A stretch of 25,022 nucleotides of DNA from a virus. Positions within the stretch are counted from its first letter, which is position 1. Each line of letters starts with the position of its first letter. The stretch spans positions 1 to 25,022 of IMG/VR virus record IMGVR_UViG_3300034518_000018; one strand, 5' to 3'. The translations under genes were made by a program, and so were the position numbers. A model generated the notes under the pieces. The model saw nothing but the letters and a program-made list of their open reading frames with translations. It ran no database searches and was not told the origin of the DNA. Positions 1 through 25,022 of the stretch are shown here, piece after piece.

Positions 1-770
1 ACCCAATTGAAATAAGATTACTTGGAGGTGAGCCCACATTACACAAAGATTTCTTTAAAACCATAGACATAATTTATGAGGCTGGACATTCATGTTATCT
101 ATCAACGAATGGATATAGAATAGGACGAGATATAGAGTTTGCTAAAAAACTAAAAGAACATAGTAAAAAAGGAAAGATGCGAATACACATGGATTTTAGT
201 TGCGGTCTAAGTGAACGTTTAGCAGAAATACATCATGCAGATAAAAATAGTGTCATTAAAAAATTAAAAATGTTAGATGTTTGTACTGAAATAGGATTAG
301 GCCGTATTACTATTGGTATGGTACTTACAAGGGGAGTTAATGAATCTCATATGGAAGATGTATTTACTATAGCTAAGAGATATCCTAAAGTTATACGAGA
401 AATTGCCTATAGGTCACAAGGAAATATTGGTCGTTATATTAAAGATAAAGATGGCAATGATTTAAAACCATATACCACAAATGAATGGCTAAATCTAATG
501 TTAGAAAAGAAATTAACGACTAAAGAAGATTTAAGTAAAACAATTATGGCTGGATTTATGGATAAAAGATGTAAAGGTAAAAATTGTTGTTATCATTATG
601 CAGTAGATAGAAAATTGTATATATCATGGTTAGATTTTTTAAATGATACTTGTTGGATGAGAGGTCAATTACGAGAAAAAGATGGTGAAGTTTTACCAGA
701 GGTTGAATACATGTTTGAATCATTAGAAGCTAATGATATAAATAAATTTATTAAAGTTGAAAATATATAA
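1..770 (+). CDS. Radical SAM protein, 5'-truncated by window edge
   Basis: The reading frame is open from base 3 with no start in the window, so the gene begins to the left. The ATG at 177 is internal. Bases 24-38 encode GGEPT, the SAM-contacting motif of the radical SAM fold, preceded by a beta strand (IEIRLL) and followed by LHKDFF and a strand ending STNGY, as in MoaA/PqqE-type proteins. The CxxxCxxC iron-sulfur motif must lie upstream and cannot be seen. The C-terminal third has a cysteine group (CKGKNCC, then DTCW about 30 residues later) that could bind an auxiliary cluster; this is inference. It is the first of four radical SAM cores on this strand. The next gene starts 37 bases downstream. 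The substrate is unknown. Radical SAM membership is fairly sure from motif order, the exact family is not. Confidence 0.8.
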   Translation, partial: PIEIRLLGGEPTLHKDFFKTIDIIYEAGHSCYLSTNGYRIGRDIEFAKKLKEHSKKGKMRIHMDFSCGLSERLAEIHHADKNSVIKKLKMLDVCTEIGLGRITIGMVLTRGVNESHMEDVFTIAKRYPKVIREIAYRSQGNIGRYIKDKDGNDLKPYTTNEWLNLMLEKKLTTKEDLSKTIMAGFMDKRCKGKNCCYHYAVDRKLYISWLDFLNDTCWMRGQLREKDGEVLPEVEYMFESLEANDINKFIKVENI

Positions 771-807
771 TGGTAGATGTAAAACCTGAAATGGAGGAAA
801 TTGTAAA

Positions 808-1761
808 ATGGATGCAGTATTAGAAGAACACTACATAGAAAAATTAAATAAAGTAATTGATCTAGTAATCACTCCTGAAATGGATGAGATTATACAAGCA
901 CAAGAATTGATAGGTATGAGAATAAGTGGAGGTATCGACTCTGCATTTATGACCTATCTTATGATGAGTAGATACCCTAATAAGAAATTATTACCTGTTA
1001 CAATGTTTAATAAGTTAAGACCTGCAGCTATGGACGCAGTATTAAATGTTGAAAGTAAATTAAGAGAACTAAATCCTGATAGCACATTGTTAGAAAGTGA
1101 AGTAGCATTTTTTGATACGTCTAATTGGAAAAAAACTAAAGAGATGGTAGAAGAATCTGAAAAGACAGGAAAAAAATATAACCCTAAAGATATATTTCAA
1201 CAAAAATATTACGAAGATTTATATAAAAGATATCCTGAACTAAACGTATATATGTCTGGTGAAACTCTAAACCCACCTATAGAAGAACAACCTAATATAA
1301 TTACAGATGACTTTGCTGGTTTTCCTAATGATAGAAACTTCAAAAAGAATCCTATATCAAAAAGAATAAAGAAAATGATTGACGGAAAACTTGTTTATTA
1401 TGATACTCACAAATATGAAATAAGACCATTTCGTAATACTAATAAAAAACAAGTTGCACAATGGGTAAAAAAACTTGGTTTAGATAAGACTTTATTTCCT
1501 GTGACTGAAACTTGCGAAACAGAAATCTTTATGTATAATGTATATGCTAGAGATTTTAATATGCCTTATACAAAACCTGGTGCAGAACCTTGTAAAAGAT
1601 GTTGGCCTTGTAGAGAAAAATATTGGGCATATGGATACTATGACTTTAATAATATAGAAACGGTTGCTGAATATAAGTTATCCAAACAAGTGGAAGATAA
1701 AGTGGAAGAAGTCAAAGCATTAAAAATGAAGTTAGAGGAGCTTAACTCTAACAATGATTGA
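808..1761 (+). CDS. PP-loop ATP pyrophosphatase, QueC/ExsB-like
   Basis: This 317-aa protein has the PP-loop motif SGGIDSA near residue 40, which binds ATP and adenylates a substrate in QueC, TilS, NadE, asparagine synthetase and sugar amidotransferases. Near the C-terminus a cysteine in VTETCETE is followed about 27 residues later by PCKRCWPC, a C-x2-C-x2-C group like the zinc site of QueC (7-cyano-7-deazaguanine synthase). In QueC the first cysteine is closer, so spacing differs. The last 30 residues look helical and charged. GGAGG at 793-797 supports the start, with a 10-base spacer. No QueD, QueE or FolE partner is recognised here, so a deazaguanine role is only one option. A sugar amidotransferase of PseA/WbpG type, or another adenylating enzyme, is also possible. 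PP-loop membership is secure; the substrate is open. Confidence 0.8.
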   Translation: MDAVLEEHYIEKLNKVIDLVITPEMDEIIQAQELIGMRISGGIDSAFMTYLMMSRYPNKKLLPVTMFNKLRPAAMDAVLNVESKLRELNPDSTLLESEVAFFDTSNWKKTKEMVEESEKTGKKYNPKDIFQQKYYEDLYKRYPELNVYMSGETLNPPIEEQPNIITDDFAGFPNDRNFKKNPISKRIKKMIDGKLVYYDTHKYEIRPFRNTNKKQVAQWVKKLGLDKTLFPVTETCETEIFMYNVYARDFNMPYTKPGAEPCKRCWPCREKYWAYGYYDFNNIETVAEYKLSKQVEDKVEEVKALKMKLEELNSNND

Positions 1762-1787
1762 TCTACAACTCTATTTAGGACCAAGAA

Positions 1788-3203
1788 ATGGAAAAGATAT
1801 TTAAAGATAAAAGTATGGCAGCTGTTACAAACAGTATGCCTGGTAACGTAGATACCTCTGATTGGTTTAATACATTATCAGACAAAGGTCTAGAGCGTAA
1901 AGAAGATCCTAAATCTATAATGAATAGAGCAAAGAAAAAAGATAGTTGGTTTTGTGTTCATCCTTTTGCTGAAATGTTTATTGAACTAGATGGTTCTTAT
2001 AAGGCCTGTTGTCTTGCAGAAAAATCAGGTCAACATATTGCAACAACATCTATAAAAGATTGGATGCAAAGTGATAACTTAAACAAATTAAGACAGCAGA
2101 TGTTAGACCCTAGTAAAGGTAGGGACGCAATAGAAAAGAATTGTGTTAGATGTGTTAGTGATGAAAAGAGATATGGTAAATCTCGTAGAACTCACCATAT
2201 GTGGCGTGAGTCAAATAGTAAAAATCGTTGGGATAGAATTGAAAGACACGTTAGAATGTTTGAAAAGACAGGTGTATGGGATTTTGATGAAAGAATTATG
2301 CAAATACAATTAAAGTCTTTTGGTATAGAATGTAATTTAGATTGTCATATGTGTAACCACGACAGCTCATCTATGCGTATTGATATGATGAACAAACACA
2401 ATGTTTATAGTGAAAAAATGTTTGGGTCTATGGAAAAAACACAAAGAAAAATAAAACTAGTTGAAGATAATCTAAACAAGATAGATAAAAAATCTGTTGT
2501 AGAACAAATTAAAGAACTTGTACCTTATCTTAATAGTATAAAGATAATAGGTGGCGAACCATTAATTATGAAAAAGTATTTTGATTTTTTAAGTGAGATA
2601 TTAAAGACAGGACACGCTGAACACATAACGGTTAAGTTTCAAACTAATCTTACAAAGTTAGGCGAAGGTAATCATAAGTTTATAAACTTTGTACCTCACT
2701 TTAAACAAACATCATTTACTGCTTCTATTGATGGTGTAGGACAGTATGCAGAATATTTAAGAAGAAGATCAAACTGGCAAGAAATATTAGACAATATAGT
2801 TTTACTTGCTTCAGACAAATACAAAGGTAAAGCATTTGTTGATGTTAATTCTGTCATCACTTGTTTTAGTGTATTACGTTTTGATGAAGTAATTAAATTT
2901 TGTGCTGAGAATCCAGGTATAAGAAGTGCTGGTTGGTTGATGATTGAAAGACCTGAACCATTAAGAGTAAATAACTTACCTAAAAAATTAAAAGATCAAC
3001 TTATACCAAAGTATGAAGGCTGGCCAGATATACAATCTGCATTAAGAATGCCAGAAGAACCTGACAATGATTTTCAGGACACGTTGAACTATATGTTACA
3101 ACAGGATAAAGCATACGAAGGAACAAAATGGGAATCACATTTGTTTGACGTATTCCCAGAACTAAAGGAGTATTATGACGGCACCTATCCAAAGAATGCC
3201 TAA
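1788..3203 (+). CDS. Radical SAM protein with N-terminal twitch-like domain
   Basis: In this 471-aa protein the order of domains is unusual. A cysteine-rich region comes first (C56, then DGSYKACC with C74 and C75, then CVRC at 119-122). This resembles the twitch/SPASM auxiliary-cluster module that normally follows the core. The radical SAM core then begins at residue 180 with ECNLDCHMC (C182, C186, C189, the CxxxCxxC motif), followed by GGEP at 255-258. The arrangement matches the family I know as twitch domain-containing radical SAM proteins, seen in marine phages and bacteria with unknown substrates. AGGA lies about 8 bases before the start. The 3' end overlaps the next gene by 29 bases, so the two are probably translated together. 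Radical SAM assignment is firm; function is unknown. Confidence 0.87.
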   Translation: MEKIFKDKSMAAVTNSMPGNVDTSDWFNTLSDKGLERKEDPKSIMNRAKKKDSWFCVHPFAEMFIELDGSYKACCLAEKSGQHIATTSIKDWMQSDNLNKLRQQMLDPSKGRDAIEKNCVRCVSDEKRYGKSRRTHHMWRESNSKNRWDRIERHVRMFEKTGVWDFDERIMQIQLKSFGIECNLDCHMCNHDSSSMRIDMMNKHNVYSEKMFGSMEKTQRKIKLVEDNLNKIDKKSVVEQIKELVPYLNSIKIIGGEPLIMKKYFDFLSEILKTGHAEHITVKFQTNLTKLGEGNHKFINFVPHFKQTSFTASIDGVGQYAEYLRRRSNWQEILDNIVLLASDKYKGKAFVDVNSVITCFSVLRFDEVIKFCAENPGIRSAGWLMIERPEPLRVNNLPKKLKDQLIPKYEGWPDIQSALRMPEEPDNDFQDTLNYMLQQDKAYEGTKWESHLFDVFPELKEYYDGTYPKNA

Positions 3204-4656
3204 AGATGGTGTAGATGTTCTTTTATTTACAGACACTAATAATGCGTACGGTCATGGTAGAGATGTTGGCTGTTACACCCTTGCTGGTATTTTAAGAGAA
3301 CACGGTTATATAGTACAAGTCGTTGATTTTTTCGCAAGCTTATCTTTAGACAAAGCAAAGGATATAGTTAGAAAATATGTATCGTCAAAAACAAGATTCG
3401 TTGGATTCTCAGCAACACATTTCTCTCTTGCTAAATATAATTTAAAAGAAGAATTAAGTCCCTATCACCCTCAAGTAGTAAGAAAAAGATATAGGGGTGC
3501 TAAACCATTTCCTCAATCTAGTGGGTGGATAACTGAATTATTATATTTTATTAAACAATCATCACATGCAAAAATTATTGTAGGTGGTGATAAATTTACA
3601 CATGAATTTAATAATGATTTAATTGATTTGTGGGTTCACGGTAGAGCAGAAAAAACAGTACTTGAATTTATGACTGATACTATTCCTTCGGGACATGTGT
3701 ACGCAGAAGAAGGAAATCATTTTAATACATCACAAGGTATTATATGGGACAAGTCTGACCATTTATTTAAAGATGAATTTGTGCCAATAGAGTGGGCAAG
3801 GTCGTGTATTTTTAATTGTTCATTTTGTAATTTTACAAAAAAGAGAACTGGTGAAAAAGTAAAAAGTGTAGACACTATTAAAGAAGTACTTCTTAGAAAT
3901 TATAACGAACATGGTCTATCAAAATATATAGTTTGTGACCCAACCATTAATGATAACAATGAACGAATAAAAGCTTTACATAAGATGATAACAAGTTTGC
4001 CATTTGATATTGAATTTACTGGGTATATTAGAGTTGACTTAATACATAAATTTAGAGAACAACGAGAATTATTATTAGAGATGGGTGCTAAAGCATTCCA
4101 TTTTGGTATAGAAACATTTAATCCAAAAACTGCAAAAGCAATTAAGAAAGGTTTACATCCCGATAAAGTTAAAGAATTATTATATTATTTAAGAGAAACA
4201 TGGGAAAATAAAATTGTTATGGGTTCTGGATTTGTTATAGGTTTACCATATGAAACAAAAGAATCTGTTTATAATACTTTCAAATGGTTGCAAAAACCAG
4301 ATTGTCCATTAGATGCTGCCACCTTTATTGCAATGTATATACCTGAACCATTATATAAAGATATTGATTATTCGGATATAAGTAAAAATCCTAATGAATT
4401 TGATTTTGATTTAAAAGACGGTTCCTATAATAGATGGGAATCAAAAGAAATGACACATGATGAAGCATTAGAAATATCTTCAAAATTTTCTAATGATTTT
4501 GTAAATCCAGCATATCATTACTATTATAGCAGAATTAGAAATTTAGGATTTAGTCATGAAGAATGTTTAAAGATGAAGCTGGATTATGATGAAACATATC
4601 TTATGACAGAAAAGATACGAGATAAAATGGCAAAGGAATATCATGAAAAATTATGA
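3175..4656 (+). CDS. Radical SAM protein with B12-binding-like N-terminal domain
   Basis: This 493-aa protein has an N-terminal alpha/beta region (about residues 10-175) with the pattern of the cobalamin-binding domain of B12 radical SAM enzymes: a VDVLLF strand, CYTLAGILREHGY, a VGFSATHF strand, KIIVGGD, and the late HGRAEKTV segment. The core starts with ARSCIFNCSFC (C211, C215, C218) and continues with GIETF near residue 315 and GFVIGLP near 355, typical of the Elp3/MiaB/BchE branch. Such proteins methylate unreactive carbons or rearrange rings, but many relatives carry the fold without proven cobalamin binding. The start is chosen from AAGGAG at 3165-3170, four bases ahead; the in-frame ATG at 3196 lacks such a site. 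It overlaps both neighbours, which suggests coupled translation. The substrate is unknown. Confidence 0.85.
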   Translation: MTAPIQRMPKDGVDVLLFTDTNNAYGHGRDVGCYTLAGILREHGYIVQVVDFFASLSLDKAKDIVRKYVSSKTRFVGFSATHFSLAKYNLKEELSPYHPQVVRKRYRGAKPFPQSSGWITELLYFIKQSSHAKIIVGGDKFTHEFNNDLIDLWVHGRAEKTVLEFMTDTIPSGHVYAEEGNHFNTSQGIIWDKSDHLFKDEFVPIEWARSCIFNCSFCNFTKKRTGEKVKSVDTIKEVLLRNYNEHGLSKYIVCDPTINDNNERIKALHKMITSLPFDIEFTGYIRVDLIHKFREQRELLLEMGAKAFHFGIETFNPKTAKAIKKGLHPDKVKELLYYLRETWENKIVMGSGFVIGLPYETKESVYNTFKWLQKPDCPLDAATFIAMYIPEPLYKDIDYSDISKNPNEFDFDLKDGSYNRWESKEMTHDEALEISSKFSNDFVNPAYHYYYSRIRNLGFSHEECLKMKLDYDETYLMTEKIRDKMAKEYHEKL

Positions 4657-5422
4657 AGAATTATTCAATGATAATGAATTAAAGATTTGGGCAGATGTAA
4701 CAACATATTGTAATGCCAAATGTCCACAATGTCCTAGAACAGATCCGAATGGACTAGGTAAAGCAGAATGGTTAGAGTTAAATCAGTGGTCACTTCAACA
4801 ATTTCAAGAAAACTTTCCTATATCAATTTTAGAAAATTGTCAGCAATTTGAATTTTGTGGTGAATGGGGTGATGCCATAATGAATAAAGATATATTTGAA
4901 ATGTGTAAATATGTTATTGATAACTCAAATTCCACAATAGCCATACACACAAATGGTAGCATTAGAACGCCCAAGTGGTGGAAAGAATTAGGAGAAATGT
5001 GTGGTGATAGACTTGTAGTTACTTTTGATATTGATGGATTTACACAACAACAACATGAACATTATAGAGTGGGCACAGATTTAAAATTAATTTGTGACAA
5101 TTTAAAAGCATTAAATGACACAGAATCAGAAGTAGAAGTATTTACTATAATATTTAAACACAACGAAGATGATATTCCAAAGATAGCAAAATTTGTAAAA
5201 GAATTGGGTGTAGAAAAAATTATGTTTATTCTTTCTAGTAGATTTGCTAAAGTTGCAGAAATTAATAGTCGTAAAATATTTGAATACACAGATAATAATA
5301 ATAAGATAAATATTCTTGAACAAAGTAGATTTAATGCCGATGCCGGAAGTATATTTTTGAAAGACATAATTTTAAATAATGAAAGTATAAACATATTAGA
5401 GGATTATGTTAAAAACAACTAA
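4643..5422 (+). CDS. Radical SAM core protein (SPASM half in next frame)
   Basis: This 259-aa protein has TYCNAKCPQCPR (C23, C27, C30), a canonical CxxxCxxC cluster motif. FCGEWGD at 71-77 takes the place of GGEP, and AIHTNGS and VVTFDIDG strands follow. This is the layout of SPASM radical SAM proteins, but the protein stops just where a SPASM domain should begin. That domain is encoded immediately downstream in the +1 frame (see the next entry and the finding). AAAGGA at 4632-4637 supports the start, and the start overlaps the previous gene by 14 bases. It could be a genuine two-gene enzyme, a recoded fusion, or a single frameshift. Radical SAM assignment is firm; the substrate is unknown. 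Confidence 0.85.
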   Translation: MKNYEELFNDNELKIWADVTTYCNAKCPQCPRTDPNGLGKAEWLELNQWSLQQFQENFPISILENCQQFEFCGEWGDAIMNKDIFEMCKYVIDNSNSTIAIHTNGSIRTPKWWKELGEMCGDRLVVTFDIDGFTQQQHEHYRVGTDLKLICDNLKALNDTESEVEVFTIIFKHNEDDIPKIAKFVKELGVEKIMFILSSRFAKVAEINSRKIFEYTDNNNKINILEQSRFNADAGSIFLKDIILNNESINILEDYVKNN

Positions 5423-5816
5423 TAAATGTGGAGTAAGGTGTTACTGGATGCTAGAAGGAAGAATAGTTATCAGTCCAGATGGTCAAGTAATGCCATGTTG
5501 TTTTTTTGAAAATCAAATTTATAAAGATATGAAATCAGTGGAAGGACATCCAACATATCTTCATTATGATATACCAATGGCAGAAAATAAAATGATAGTA
5601 GATTACATTGAACATAAGGATGAATTAAATATACATAATCGTCCGCTTAAAGAGATATTAGAACATTCATGGTTTCAACGATTATATGAATCATGGGATG
5701 ATTTTGATACTATAGATCCATTATGTATACGAATGTGTTCACGAGATAATGACAACTTGGAAGAAGAAATAAATGATACAATCTCAAAAAAAAGATTCTT
5801 TAAATTTAGAAGTTAG
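5406..5816 (+). CDS. Stand-alone SPASM-like iron-sulfur domain protein
   Basis: This 136-aa protein has NKCGVRC (C8, C12), then ISPDGQVMPCC (C31, C32) and a late CIRMC (C107, C111). This is the cysteine layout of a SPASM domain, which holds auxiliary 4Fe-4S clusters at the C-terminus of radical SAM enzymes that modify peptides or sugars. There is no radical SAM core of its own. It overlaps the end of the preceding radical SAM gene by 17 bases, one frame forward. GAGG at 5399-5402 sits only three bases before the ATG, a tight but possible ribosome site. The frame is closed by TAG at 5397-5399, so fusion to the upstream gene could occur only between 5400 and 5422. It probably works with the preceding protein. 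Confidence 0.72.
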   Translation: MLKTTNKCGVRCYWMLEGRIVISPDGQVMPCCFFENQIYKDMKSVEGHPTYLHYDIPMAENKMIVDYIEHKDELNIHNRPLKEILEHSWFQRLYESWDDFDTIDPLCIRMCSRDNDNLEEEINDTISKKRFFKFRS

Positions 5817-6471
5817 AAAATATAAACCAGGCCAAGTATTAATGCTGGGTAATATAGTTGAGTTAGTTTCAGATGACCTTGTTAATCTGGTAAAAAGTCA
5901 TTCAACAGAGGAACAACGTTCCATACAGACCCTTGAAAAATGGCAAGGCATAGGACATACCTTGTATAAATTTGATGAAATGACAAAATATTCTCCAGAT
6001 TTACATGAGATTCATAGTATATATAGCAAAAATGGACTTGACATTGATATAGATGAATATGCAAAGTCACATTTAGAACGACTTAAGCCTTATCCTGCTA
6101 ATATAAAATTTGATATGGATTTAACGACCAACACTCAACAAATATTAGATTTTCTTGAAATAGATTATGCTATAATTAAAACAACTCGTCAACCACCAGG
6201 CGCATTATATCCAATTCACTATGATAAAATGCATTCTTTAAGAGAATTGTCAGGAGAAGAAAATCAAACTGTTTTGCGTTTTTATATATTTTTAGAAGAT
6301 TGGAAACAAGGACAATTTTTGTTTGCTAATGATTCTGTGTTACAATGGAAAAAAGGTGATATATACTGTTGGGACGATAATGTGCTACACGGTTCGGCTA
6401 ATTCAGGTATACATCCAAAAATGGGATTGACTATTACTGGACCTTTAAAATTAGATAAGTATGAAAGGTAA
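5773..6471 (+). CDS. 2OG-Fe(II) oxygenase-like hydroxylase
   Basis: In this 232-aa protein the C-terminal half reads as a double-stranded beta-helix. HYD at 149-151 gives the HxD pair, a strand RFYIFLEDW follows, then GQFLFANDS, the KKGDIYCWDD turn, and H206 in NVLHGSAN as the distal iron ligand. This fits 2-oxoglutarate/Fe(II) dioxygenases of the aspartyl/asparaginyl or prolyl hydroxylase type. The 2OG-anchoring residue, usually Arg a little after the distal His, is Lys216 here, so co-substrate use is not certain. The start overlaps the SPASM-like gene by 44 bases and has GGAAGAAG at 5759-5766. Its place among radical SAM genes suggests that it oxidises the same product. Fold assignment is likely, substrate unknown. 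Confidence 0.72.
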   Translation: MIQSQKKDSLNLEVRKYKPGQVLMLGNIVELVSDDLVNLVKSHSTEEQRSIQTLEKWQGIGHTLYKFDEMTKYSPDLHEIHSIYSKNGLDIDIDEYAKSHLERLKPYPANIKFDMDLTTNTQQILDFLEIDYAIIKTTRQPPGALYPIHYDKMHSLRELSGEENQTVLRFYIFLEDWKQGQFLFANDSVLQWKKGDIYCWDDNVLHGSANSGIHPKMGLTITGPLKLDKYER

Positions 6472-6475
6472 AATA

Positions 6476-7063
6476 ATGAGAATAATATGTTGCAGATTTG
6501 GTAATAAGTTTACCGACTGGCACGTTAAAAATTTAAAACATATGATAGACACTTATTCAGGTCTAAAGTATGATAATTTTGAAGTAATAGATACTGATTT
6601 GTATGGCAACTGGTATAATAAACTTCAAATGTATGACAAGTTTAGAGATGGAGAAAATTTATACCTTGATTTAGATGTAGTTATCTATAATAAGTTACCA
6701 AACTTAATTAGAAAAGAATTTACATTGTTAGATGATACTTGGTGGAGAAAACCTGCTCATACACCATTAAACTCTTCCGTTGTATCTTGGACAGGAGATA
6801 AGTCTTGGATATGGGATAAGTTTAAATCAAATGATACAGAATACTTAAAAGTATATAATAAAGGAAGTGATGAGTTTTATTATAAACAAATAGTATATGA
6901 AACATATGATAAAGTTTGTCCTTCTATCAAAAATTATATGTATGAAATGCCACCAAAAGAATTTAGTATTTGTACTCTAGGTCAAATGAACCACATAATG
7001 GAAGAAGGTTGGACTGGTTGGTGGGATAATTATTTTTTACCTAGACAATCCATTGCAGCCTGA
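6476..7063 (+). CDS. Glycosyltransferase-like protein (GT-A fold, DxD)
   Basis: From this start the protein is 195 aa. It opens with a strand RIICCRFG, has VIDTDLYG near residue 40, and ENLYLDLDVVI with DLD at 65-67. That resembles the DxD metal/nucleotide-sugar motif of small GT-A transferases (GT8 or capsule-synthesis type). The rest is rich in Trp and Tyr and has no membrane segment. I chose ATG 6476 because AAAGG at 6464-6468 lies seven bases ahead and the previous gene stops at 6471. ATG 6461 would add five residues but has no ribosome site. The 3' end overlaps the convergent gene on the other strand. The acceptor is unknown; phage product, fibre or host envelope are all possible. Confidence 0.65.
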   Translation: MRIICCRFGNKFTDWHVKNLKHMIDTYSGLKYDNFEVIDTDLYGNWYNKLQMYDKFRDGENLYLDLDVVIYNKLPNLIRKEFTLLDDTWWRKPAHTPLNSSVVSWTGDKSWIWDKFKSNDTEYLKVYNKGSDEFYYKQIVYETYDKVCPSIKNYMYEMPPKEFSICTLGQMNHIMEEGWTGWWDNYFLPRQSIAA

Positions 7064-7524
7064 AAAACATCAATCTTATTTTTAGCTTGTCTTAATGTCT
7101 TTTTAGCTTTAGCGTTTTTAGAATCTCTAATCTTTACAACGTCAAATAAAGCAAGTTTTAATGCAAACAGATGGTCTGCATTATCAACATCTTCAAATAT
7201 TGCTTGACATAATTTTGGGAAAAACTTACTATCTATTTTATCAGAATCAAATACTAAACCTTCTTTTTTAGCGATTCTCATAACAGATTCTTCAAACGCT
7301 TTTCTTTCTTTTCGTTTTTTTTCGTAAGTTGCTTCATGGATTTTATCTATATCCATAAACTTTGTAAGCGCTATGTATTGAGGATGATTTTCCTCATAAG
7401 GTAATACAGTAGTAAAAACCTTTTGTTTATCGTCTGTGGTTGTCAACATCTCTATATTTTTTCTTTCACTATCAACAAAATATGATGTTATTAAATTTTC
7501 TTTTAAATATTCTTCAGTTAACAT
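7030..7524 (-). CDS. Unrecognised 164-aa protein
   Basis: I do not recognise a family. The protein is soluble-looking and charged. Residues 1-50 look like a small alpha/beta piece (a strand around YFVDSERKNIEML, then VFTTVLPYEE), and the remainder is strongly helical with many Lys, Arg and Glu (KKRKERKAFEES; KNAKAKKTLRQAKNK). There is no signal peptide, membrane segment or metal motif. The start is well supported: AGGAG on the minus strand (7532-7536) lies seven bases before the ATG, inside the end of the epimerase gene, with an 11-base overlap. It is the last gene of the minus-strand block and overlaps the plus-strand glycosyltransferase-like gene tail to tail. A clear ribosome site and long frame make it a real gene. 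Confidence 0.7.
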   Translation of the reverse strand: MLTEEYLKENLITSYFVDSERKNIEMLTTTDDKQKVFTTVLPYEENHPQYIALTKFMDIDKIHEATYEKKRKERKAFEESVMRIAKKEGLVFDSDKIDSKFFPKLCQAIFEDVDNADHLFALKLALFDVVKIRDSKNAKAKKTLRQAKNKIDVFQAAMDCLGKK

Positions 7525-8245
7525 TTCTATTCTCCTCTATATAATTGTATAAGTTAATCTTTGGTAACCAACCAAGATTATTTAGTAGTGTATTATCAGC
7601 CTTATTATCCAATCTTTCAAATTCATTTCCAAGGACAAATTTATCACAACTAACTTTAAAATAATCAACTAGGTCCATAAGTTTGTTTGTAATACCAGCA
7701 CCAAGATCAGTTACACCAGTTAAATCTGTTTTCATTAAAGTATTTATCCCTCTCACTAAATCGTCAACGTGTATAAAATCTCTGCTGTGGTTTATATTTA
7801 TAAATGGAACGTCATCTCTTAATATTCTAGGAATCAACATACTCTCTCTAGCATTTGGTCCATAGACAGTTGTAAATCTCATTCCTAAACTATTTGTAGG
7901 TGCTATTTGCTCTAAGCTGTATTTGCTCATAGCATATGGATTTCTCCAAGGTTCGTGTGATGTTGATGAACTTGCGTATAAGATTCTTGTATCTTTGAAG
8001 TAGTCAAAAAGTCTTTGACCTGCGATTACATTTTGTTCCCAATATTCAGTAGGTCGTTCCAAACTATCTCTAACGCCAGACAACCCAGCAAGATGTATAA
8101 CTAAATCTACATTATGCTTTAAGTCACAGGATAATAAATCATTACCTGTTAACTTGTCTAAACAAGTTATTTTATGATTGGGTTTTAAAAATTTAAATAA
8201 ATGTTGGCCAACGAAGCCTTCACTACCTGTTAATAATATATTCAT
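7514..8245 (-). CDS. NAD-dependent epimerase/dehydratase (extended SDR), short
   Basis: In this 243-aa protein, MNILLTGSEGFVGQHL gives the Rossmann GxxGxxG-type motif (residues 7-13). LVIHLAG follows, then the SSS patch at 92-94 and PYAMSK, with catalytic Tyr104 and Lys108 (YxxxK). GMRFTTVYGP and DFIHVDDLVRG are further hallmarks of nucleotide-sugar epimerases and dehydratases. The usual length is 300-340 residues, so the C-terminal substrate domain is trimmed. No Shine-Dalgarno sequence is seen before the ATG. The first residue is fixed by the Rossmann strand, so this looks like weak or coupled translation. It lies next to virion genes and near the glycosyltransferase-like gene, which suggests sugar work on a surface glycan or fibre. 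The exact sugar substrate cannot be read. Confidence 0.85.
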   Translation of the reverse strand: MNILLTGSEGFVGQHLFKFLKPNHKITCLDKLTGNDLLSCDLKHNVDLVIHLAGLSGVRDSLERPTEYWEQNVIAGQRLFDYFKDTRILYASSSTSHEPWRNPYAMSKYSLEQIAPTNSLGMRFTTVYGPNARESMLIPRILRDDVPFININHSRDFIHVDDLVRGINTLMKTDLTGVTDLGAGITNKLMDLVDYFKVSCDKFVLGNEFERLDNKADNTLLNNLGWLPKINLYNYIEENRNVN

Positions 8246-24066: not shown

Positions 24067-24375
24067 TTACAGACCATTTGCAAATACATTCAATGATCCT
24101 CTTATCATAGAGCCTGCGTCAGCACTATCAGTAACTCTACCCCAAGGTATACCGCTTATTTTAACATTTGGTGATCCAGCATTTAAAAACATAATGTGTG
24201 GACAACAAATATTAGGTGGTGGACATATAGGAGCGTTATGTGGGATAGTAGGTGTACCTACAACAGCACCAGCAATACCGTTTGCTTTCACTGTTCTAAC
24301 TAGTGAAAGTGATAATGTTGTTGTAAAATCACAACTATGTCCTGTTGATAACATATCAAAATCTCTTACTGCCAT
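24067..24375 (-). CDS. PAAR-like spike tip protein (gp5.4-type)
   Basis: This 102-aa protein has STGHSCDF (H13) near the start, a central IPHNAPICPPPNICCPH (H46, Cys51, H60), and a C-terminal SLNVFANG phrase. These are the hallmarks of PAAR proteins, which form a metal-sharpened cone on the gp5/VgrG spike. T4 gp5.4 is the counterpart. It would sit at the tip of the central spike and pierce the host envelope. The metal ligands are inferred from His and Cys spacing. GGAAGAGGAG just upstream gives the best ribosome site of the block. The ATG overlaps the stop of the SGNH-like gene by one base, which links the two. Confidence 0.85.
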   Translation of the reverse strand: MAVRDFDMLSTGHSCDFTTTLSLSLVRTVKANGIAGAVVGTPTIPHNAPICPPPNICCPHIMFLNAGSPNVKISGIPWGRVTDSADAGSMIRGSLNVFANGL

Positions 24376-25022
24376 TATGCTCCTCTTCCTTGTGAATTGT
24401 ATGGTTTATAACTACGTTCTTTAGACTTATTCATAGTACTAAACCTGTCATATAAAAACTCCGCTATTTTTTCGTGCCCTTTTGCATTAGGGTGATTATC
24501 TAAATCTGAAATACAATATGTTCTCTCATTTGCATAAATATCCAATATATCATCACAAAAATTAAATCCGCCTAATCTTCTTTCAGTAGGCCAACCAATA
24601 AAATTATTATCTATTTTCTTAAAATAAGGATTATTATAAAGAATATTGACCTCACGAGTACAAATTAACAAACCTTTTGGCAGTTCTTTGTTAGAACGAA
24701 AAAAAGGTAACATTTGAAATTGCTTTAATGGTATTTTTTTTGATTTACATATTTCTTGAAGACTATAGTAATATCTTATACTTCTATCTGTATTACCAGC
24801 TATAGACTTAGGGGGCATCTTATTGTGAATAGCAGTATAGTCTGGTTTATAAAACCCATCGATATGTTTCCATATGCCTCTTACTTTAATATCTTTCCTG
24901 TTAGTTTGAGTCCAAGCTGATATTACTAATCCTATATTATCTTTATTCGTTTGTTTTATTTGATCTAACAAACTAGAAAAAATATATTCATTACCAGCTC
25001 CACTACGACCTAAATTAATACA
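24375..25022 (-). CDS. SGNH-hydrolase-like protein, 5'-truncated by window edge
   Basis: The frame stays open to the right edge, so the start is outside. The TTG at 24971 is internal. 215 residues are visible. Near the visible N-terminus, INLGRSGAGNEYI resembles the block I/II region of SGNH/GDSL esterases. VISAWTQTNR could be block III. DLDNHPNAKGHEKIAEFLY near the C-terminus is the block V pattern DxxH, with Asp175 and His177 of the visible chain as candidate catalytic residues. The catalytic serine, if present, may be outside the window. SGNH enzymes deacetylate or de-esterify sugars. Its position next to the spike tip and baseplate suggests a tail-associated esterase acting on host envelope glycan, but this is inference. 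Confidence 0.68.
   Translation of the reverse strand, partial: CINLGRSGAGNEYIFSSLLDQIKQTNKDNIGLVISAWTQTNRKDIKVRGIWKHIDGFYKPDYTAIHNKMPPKSIAGNTDRSIRYYYSLQEICKSKKIPLKQFQMLPFFRSNKELPKGLLICTREVNILYNNPYFKKIDNNFIGWPTERRLGGFNFCDDILDIYANERTYCISDLDNHPNAKGHEKIAEFLYDRFSTMNKSKERSYKPYNSQGRGA

Follow-up and report, generated by a model that had tools for sequence, protein, structure and literature searches.

Radical SAM genes beside the baseplate module of a pelagimyophage-like virus: probable 3' part of a glycan-biosynthesis and decoration cluster

Why does a virus contig otherwise occupied by tail genes carry four radical S-adenosylmethionine (SAM) enzymes? The question is raised by IMG/VR record IMGVR_UViG_3300034518_000018, a virus contig analysed over its whole length of 25,022 bases and referred to here as the window. 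Its nt 1-7063 hold eight densely packed plus-strand genes, A to H, which overlap their neighbours or lie 26-37 nt from them and run toward the baseplate genes of a pelagimyophage-like virus. The right two thirds of the window, on the minus strand, encode T4-like baseplate and tail proteins; both the packing and the structural surroundings were as described in a first-pass annotation. With moderate confidence, we read the block as the 3' portion of a cluster with which the phage makes and decorates a glycan; this cluster would lie in the pelagimyophage host recognition region and remodel the host surface. The first-pass annotation had presented this setting as lacking a phage precedent, but radical SAM cassettes of pelagimyophage host recognition clusters were mentioned, unexplained, in 2020 (accessible part of PMC7029224). 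What is new is the pathway-level dissection of the cluster; the cassettes themselves were already known. A literature search, with most subscription journals outside its scope, found no account of the cluster as a pathway.

Enzymes of the gene block

The four radical SAM motifs noticed in the first pass were all verified, at nt 24-38 in A (GGEPT) and as CNLDCHMC in C (residues 182-189), CIFNCSFC in D (211-218) and CNAKCPQC in E (23-30). A CxxxCxxC motif appeared by chance in 0.1-0.5% of shuffled C, D and E sequences, and all four proteins exceeded the gathering score of Pfam Radical_SAM (A 6e-10, C 7e-9, D 2e-17, E 3e-7). Gene A (3..770, +) has no CxxxCxxC of its own because the contig begins inside it; a complete copy in relative contig L062, 98% identical, carries CDYSCNQC. 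Besides the window and L062, A was seen only in L002, the near-twin of the window. A viperin-type antiviral or defence role for A was considered and rejected (NF038283, 20 versus 180 bits; PADLOC pVip only 3e-8).

Gene C (1788..3203, +) joins an N-terminal twitch/SPASM part to a radical SAM enzyme (N_Twi_rSAM). It matched NF033640, 'twitch domain-containing radical SAM protein', over residues 53-463 (E=7e-84), with 282 bits against a curated cut-off of 170; to our knowledge, no reaction has been assigned to this family. Identity of C among relatives was 71-84%. Gene D (3175..4656, +), whose start codon sits within the 3' end of C, encodes a B12-binding radical SAM enzyme of PhpK/HpnJ/BchE/AprD4 type (Pfam 2e-17 and 1e-6; NCBIfam) and matched the AprD4 structure 6fd2 at 1.5e-4. 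Among relatives it was carried only by L002, with a partial copy in L050. E (4643..5422, +; Pfam 2.6e-7) and F (5406..5816, +) are the radical SAM core half and the SPASM half of a split pair. F, the SPASM-like module recognised earlier, scored above the Pfam SPASM gathering score (3.6e-6) and followed E wherever E was complete; E/F pairs were also present in L016 and L028.

The PP-loop enzyme of the first pass proved to be B (808..1761, +; SGGIDS). SGGxDS and CxxCxxC were invariant across 13 homologues, the QueC-like C-terminal motif in B having the form CxxCWPC (C236...C262xxC265WPC268). Its AlphaFold model (predicted local distance difference test, pLDDT, 73) gave Foldseek matches to TtuA, MnmA, QueC and NadE at E ~1e-5. 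The model matches a PP-loop ATPase fold and singles out no one of these enzymes. B matched phrog_1550, called QueC-like, at 9e-10; against Pfam QueC it reached 12.7 bits, below the cut-off of 22. It has the PP-loop and the C-terminal Cys motif expected of QueC and falls under the Pfam and NCBIfam cut-offs. Window positions 1682-1758 encode an extra C-terminal tail on B of about 26 residues that is absent from most relatives.

Gene G (5773..6471, +) had been called 2-oxoglutarate (2OG) oxygenase-like. The HYD...H pattern was there (HYD at residue 149), but profile support was weak (Pfam Asp_Arg_Hydrox 0.09, PADLOC 2OG 0.005), and G is tentatively assigned as a 2OG-Fe(II) oxygenase. Sequence searches of the PDB with B and with G returned nothing firm. 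The glycosyltransferase-like protein was borne out as H (6461..7063, +), which carries a DxD motif (DLD), matched phrog_1962 at 1.4e-6 and forms the fixed 3' end of the cluster. Comparison with relatives moved its start from 6461 to the second ATG, near nt 6476. The H homologue in Pelagibacter phage Mosig was 67.5% identical. U267, a second glycosyltransferase-like protein of the cluster, has DxD and WW positions in common with H and matched phrog_1962 at 6e-14, that is, the same phage glycosyltransferase family.

Conserved frame, variable interval and parent cluster

The eight genes had been proposed as one block; only B, C and H were conserved together. The order B...C...H was kept in all 26 viral contigs spanning B to H, and A, D, E/F and G were each present in at most four contigs and were found elsewhere or nowhere else. 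Judged from gene content, the former are conserved members of the parent cluster and the latter are rare, exchangeable cassettes. A methyltransferase and two glycosyltransferase-like genes, U289 and U267, lay between B and C in 24 of the 26 spanning contigs; only the window and L002 were without them. In 13 contigs the gene family NTR10 had the interval between C and H to itself, and in four the interval was empty; it held D-E-F-G in two (the window and L002), a second twitch radical SAM gene with a second PP-loop gene in two, and NTR10 with a relative of rSAM13 in two; in single cases E-F or a putative 2OG protein (f31) was added. D, NTR10 and f31 share their starting point, an overlap that begins 29 nt before C ends, as well as an initial M(T/K)APIQR (MTAPIQR or MKAPIQR), which suggests that genes are inserted and exchanged at a single fixed site. 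We take the interval from C to H to be a 'plug-in slot', which D to G occupy here.

Breaks in nucleotide homology fell close to the ends of genes (780, 1681 and 1768), and the nearest relative differed for A, B and C. The dN/dS ratio was about 0.08-0.11 for C and ranged over 0.08-0.15 across C and H, a clear sequence signature of purifying selection on both. Over short divergences, the nonsynonymous/synonymous ratio was 1.0 for B (808-1761) against L004 and 1.3 for D (4153-4653) against L050, in each case the nearest relative, unlike C and H. At L062:1100-1200 and L050:455-640, near-identical relatives met the same tail-gene flank at the junction GATGT/CTTTGATTTACC, which fell just after A in L062 and 15 codons into E in L050. 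Nested deletions, recombination at an edge and assembly chimeras are candidate explanations. The 17-mer at this junction was rejected as a recombination site: the eight other loci that the scan turned up were unrelated coincidences, L063 and L067 being excluded from the eight as duplicates of the same two junction contigs.

The order of the parent cluster was read from contigs that include its upstream part. It begins with U20, rSAM13, SPASM14, SGNH, a DegT aminotransferase, in brackets a further SPASM14-rSAM13, and rSAM12, and continues with a carbamoyltransferase, zero to two genes for nitroreductase-like flavoenzymes, B, the methyltransferase, U289, U267, C, the slot and H; 3' of H follow minus-strand genes, among them I and the epimerase gene J. 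Split radical SAM/SPASM pairs are part of this cluster, as are three or four glycosyltransferases. The DegT protein (DegT superfamily 4e-82) is PseC/LegC-like, with 186 bits against the PseC equivalog, under the curated cut-off of 423. The O-carbamoyltransferase is of NodU/TobZ type and has both domains (Carbam_trans N 3e-17, C 2e-66). The model of U20 (pLDDT 82) resembled GT-B glycosyltransferases at E about 3e-4, with TM-scores around or below 0.5, a fold-level hint that U20 may be GT-B-like.

Distant contigs (L035, L052-L054) kept U20, B, the radical SAM and/or SPASM half and the carbamoyltransferase, most of them with the methyltransferase. At L052:8449-10821, an rSAM13 core (CILRCPQC) and the carbamoyltransferase were joined in one 790-residue frame; the N-terminal part matched rSAM13 at E=5e-43 and the C-terminal part held the carbamoyltransferase domains, indicating that both enzymes serve one pathway. 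A third PP-loop family was met at L034:3042-3833, its C-terminus ending in an SGNH-like motif (DDHPNEKGHKKIAEF); this gene is perhaps a fusion or recombination product.

Phage affiliation and known parallels

The gp6-like protein of the window was 58.5% identical to that of Mosig, 52.4% to HTVC008M and 51% to Methylophilales phages Melnitz, placing the window among T4-like phages near the Pelagibacter myophages. As in the pelagimyophage host recognition cluster, a variable region with glycosyltransferases adjoins the tail genes. The similarity to Mosig suggests SAR11 as the host, the Methylophilales phages being almost equally close. At the convergent boundary 3' of H lie I (7030..7524, -), a conserved protein without known function that is syntenic in relatives and Mosig, and J (7514..8245, -), a short-chain dehydrogenase/reductase nucleotide-sugar epimerase (Pfam Epimerase 2e-24; phrog_540 1e-42). 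At the other end, 24375-25022 (-) encodes an SGNH-like protein that is cut by the contig end and adjoins a PAAR gene and baseplate genes; it shares 35% identity with the SGNH protein encoded within the glycan cluster. No tRNA genes were found in the window, and scans for repeats, promoters and terminators gave nothing above chance.

Mosig (EXVC030M, MT647606 60990-71305) has the same frame and order as the parent cluster and the same boundary (H, I, J, K) but, unlike the window, is without B, C, A, D, E/F and G. Left of its cluster, a divergent arm (L055 1-5955) encodes a fatty-acid desaturase, an aminotransferase, an FMN reductase, a peroxiredoxin, a taurine dioxygenase and an Asp_Arg_Hydrox protein, possibly a second lipid or surface module. 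HTVC008M (KC465899 124379-132312) has a radical SAM gene, a methyltransferase, a carbamoyltransferase, a NadE-like PP-loop gene and a UDP-glucose/GDP-mannose dehydrogenase in a row. However, genomic place, gene families and order differ, its PP-loop protein being NadE-like and its carbamoyltransferase about 31% identical. In Vibrio phage K566 (OZ196521), C-like twitch radical SAM genes alternate with GT8 and GT4-like genes; this is an unrelated large phage with about 23% identity and without B. At least four radical SAM genes of K566 (L060 5204-15498) stand among GT8/GT4-like glycosyltransferases, near an annotated PagP gene. On gene content, HTVC008M and K566 are two separate parallels in which radical SAM genes travel with carbohydrate enzymes. 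The accessible part of PMC7029224 concerns the same phage group and the same site beside tail genes and reports glycosyltransferases and radical SAM cassettes; it makes no mention of the carbamoyltransferase, nitroreductase or aminotransferase, nor of a slot architecture, split radical SAM/SPASM pairs or the PP-loop family.

Glycan decoration and its rivals

The analysis shows gene content, order, folds, the fusion and the slot; every reaction and the target are inferred from them. In the proposed pathway, the DegT protein would make an amino sugar, and B would spend ATP on activating a carboxylate or amide, in preparation for amidation or a similar reaction. The carbamoyltransferase would O-carbamoylate, the methyltransferase and the B12-type enzyme D would methylate, and G might hydroxylate; the radical SAM/SPASM pairs and flavoenzymes may carry out redox or rearrangement steps. 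During infection, the three or four glycosyltransferases would attach the product to a glycan of the host surface. Changed receptors could then exclude competing phages, and by exchanging slot genes each phage lineage would arrive at a decoration of its own. Synteny in complete clusters and in Mosig, the DegT protein and the carbamoyltransferase, the glycosyltransferase-like U20, U267 and H, and the L052 fusion all support this reading, as do the parallel kits of HTVC008M and K566 and the common slot start. Further support comes from freshwater pelagimyophages, reported to lack both lipopolysaccharide (LPS)-related and radical SAM genes (accessible part of PMC7029224). A host-surface target is preferred because LPS-type glycosyltransferases abound in the region, for which a role in altering host receptors has been argued, O-chain modification being favoured (same part of PMC7029224).

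Several points weigh against this reading. Radical SAM and PP-loop enzymes include some whose substrates are tRNA or peptides. Most of the sugar enzymes are missing from the window itself, since its sequence breaks off within A. One scan each found no relatives of B or C in bacterial genomes, so no bacterial polysaccharide locus anchors their function. Likewise, a plasmid search with B and phage searches with B, D and G returned no relatives.

The same pathway could decorate the virion, on tail fibres or baseplate proteins, and not the host surface. This main rival is rather unlikely but has to be taken seriously: cluster and baseplate/tail module converge, and a homologue of the cluster's SGNH protein stands beside the PAAR gene. 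The published argument for host O-chain modification (accessible part of PMC7029224) and the position of the Vibrio relatives near a gene annotated as PagP, a lipid A enzyme, speak against it, though neither is decisive. That the genes are unrelated auxiliary genes accumulated in a hypervariable region is much harder to credit. A, D, E/F and G are indeed rare and mosaic, and the homology breaks lie close to gene ends; however, nearly all carriers preserve the order and the overlaps of the frame genes, purifying selection acts on C and H, and a radical SAM enzyme is fused to the carbamoyltransferase in L052.

Among the modification pathways named as plausible in the first pass, the sugar type fits the findings, whereas the nucleotide, tRNA and peptide types fit them less well. 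SPASM-type radical SAM proteins are often peptide maturases, and E gave weak NCBIfam matches of this kind, as would suit a ribosomally synthesized and post-translationally modified peptide or another modified protein. All these scores were far under the equivalog cut-offs, though, and no YcaO, ThiF or LanB-type partner was present among the Pfam results. The precursor peptide that was to be looked for was not found, no gene in the window or in complete clusters being suitable; nearly all neighbours overlap and leave no room for one. We consider peptide modification improbable. Nucleic-acid modification, with B serving 7-deazaguanine synthesis in the manner of QueC or modifying tRNA, and with DNA or RNA as the target of the glycosyltransferases, is given an equally poor chance. 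The QueC-like label of phrog_1550, the Foldseek matches of B (mostly tRNA modifiers, QueC, NadE and GuaA) and the resemblance of U20 to T4 AGT/BGT would agree with it. By contrast, B scores below the Pfam QueC cut-off, and a TGT/DpdA-type gene was found in none of 20 records and PTPS/QueD in one of 20, most records being fragments. No thymidylate-synthase-family hydroxymethylase was found in HTVC008M or in Mosig, the latter 75.7% complete according to its authors.

Within the glycan reading, a more specific proposal is offered tentatively: a virus-specific modular pathway might lead to a new class of amino sugar that is carbamoylated, amidated, radical-rearranged and C-methylated, the slot letting every lineage bring in a radical enzyme of its own and thereby diversify the host-surface glycan. 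The system is testable, since Mosig is cultured and holds most of the cluster. Radical SAM genes have been listed as viral auxiliary genes (PMC7150976; PMC9301287). If the product were established, it would explain the recurring radical SAM genes of marine phages, for which 'generic auxiliary metabolic gene' is the usual label. A new PP-loop enzyme family might come to light with it, as might a split radical SAM/SPASM architecture, and superinfection exclusion in SAR11 would gain a mechanism open to test.

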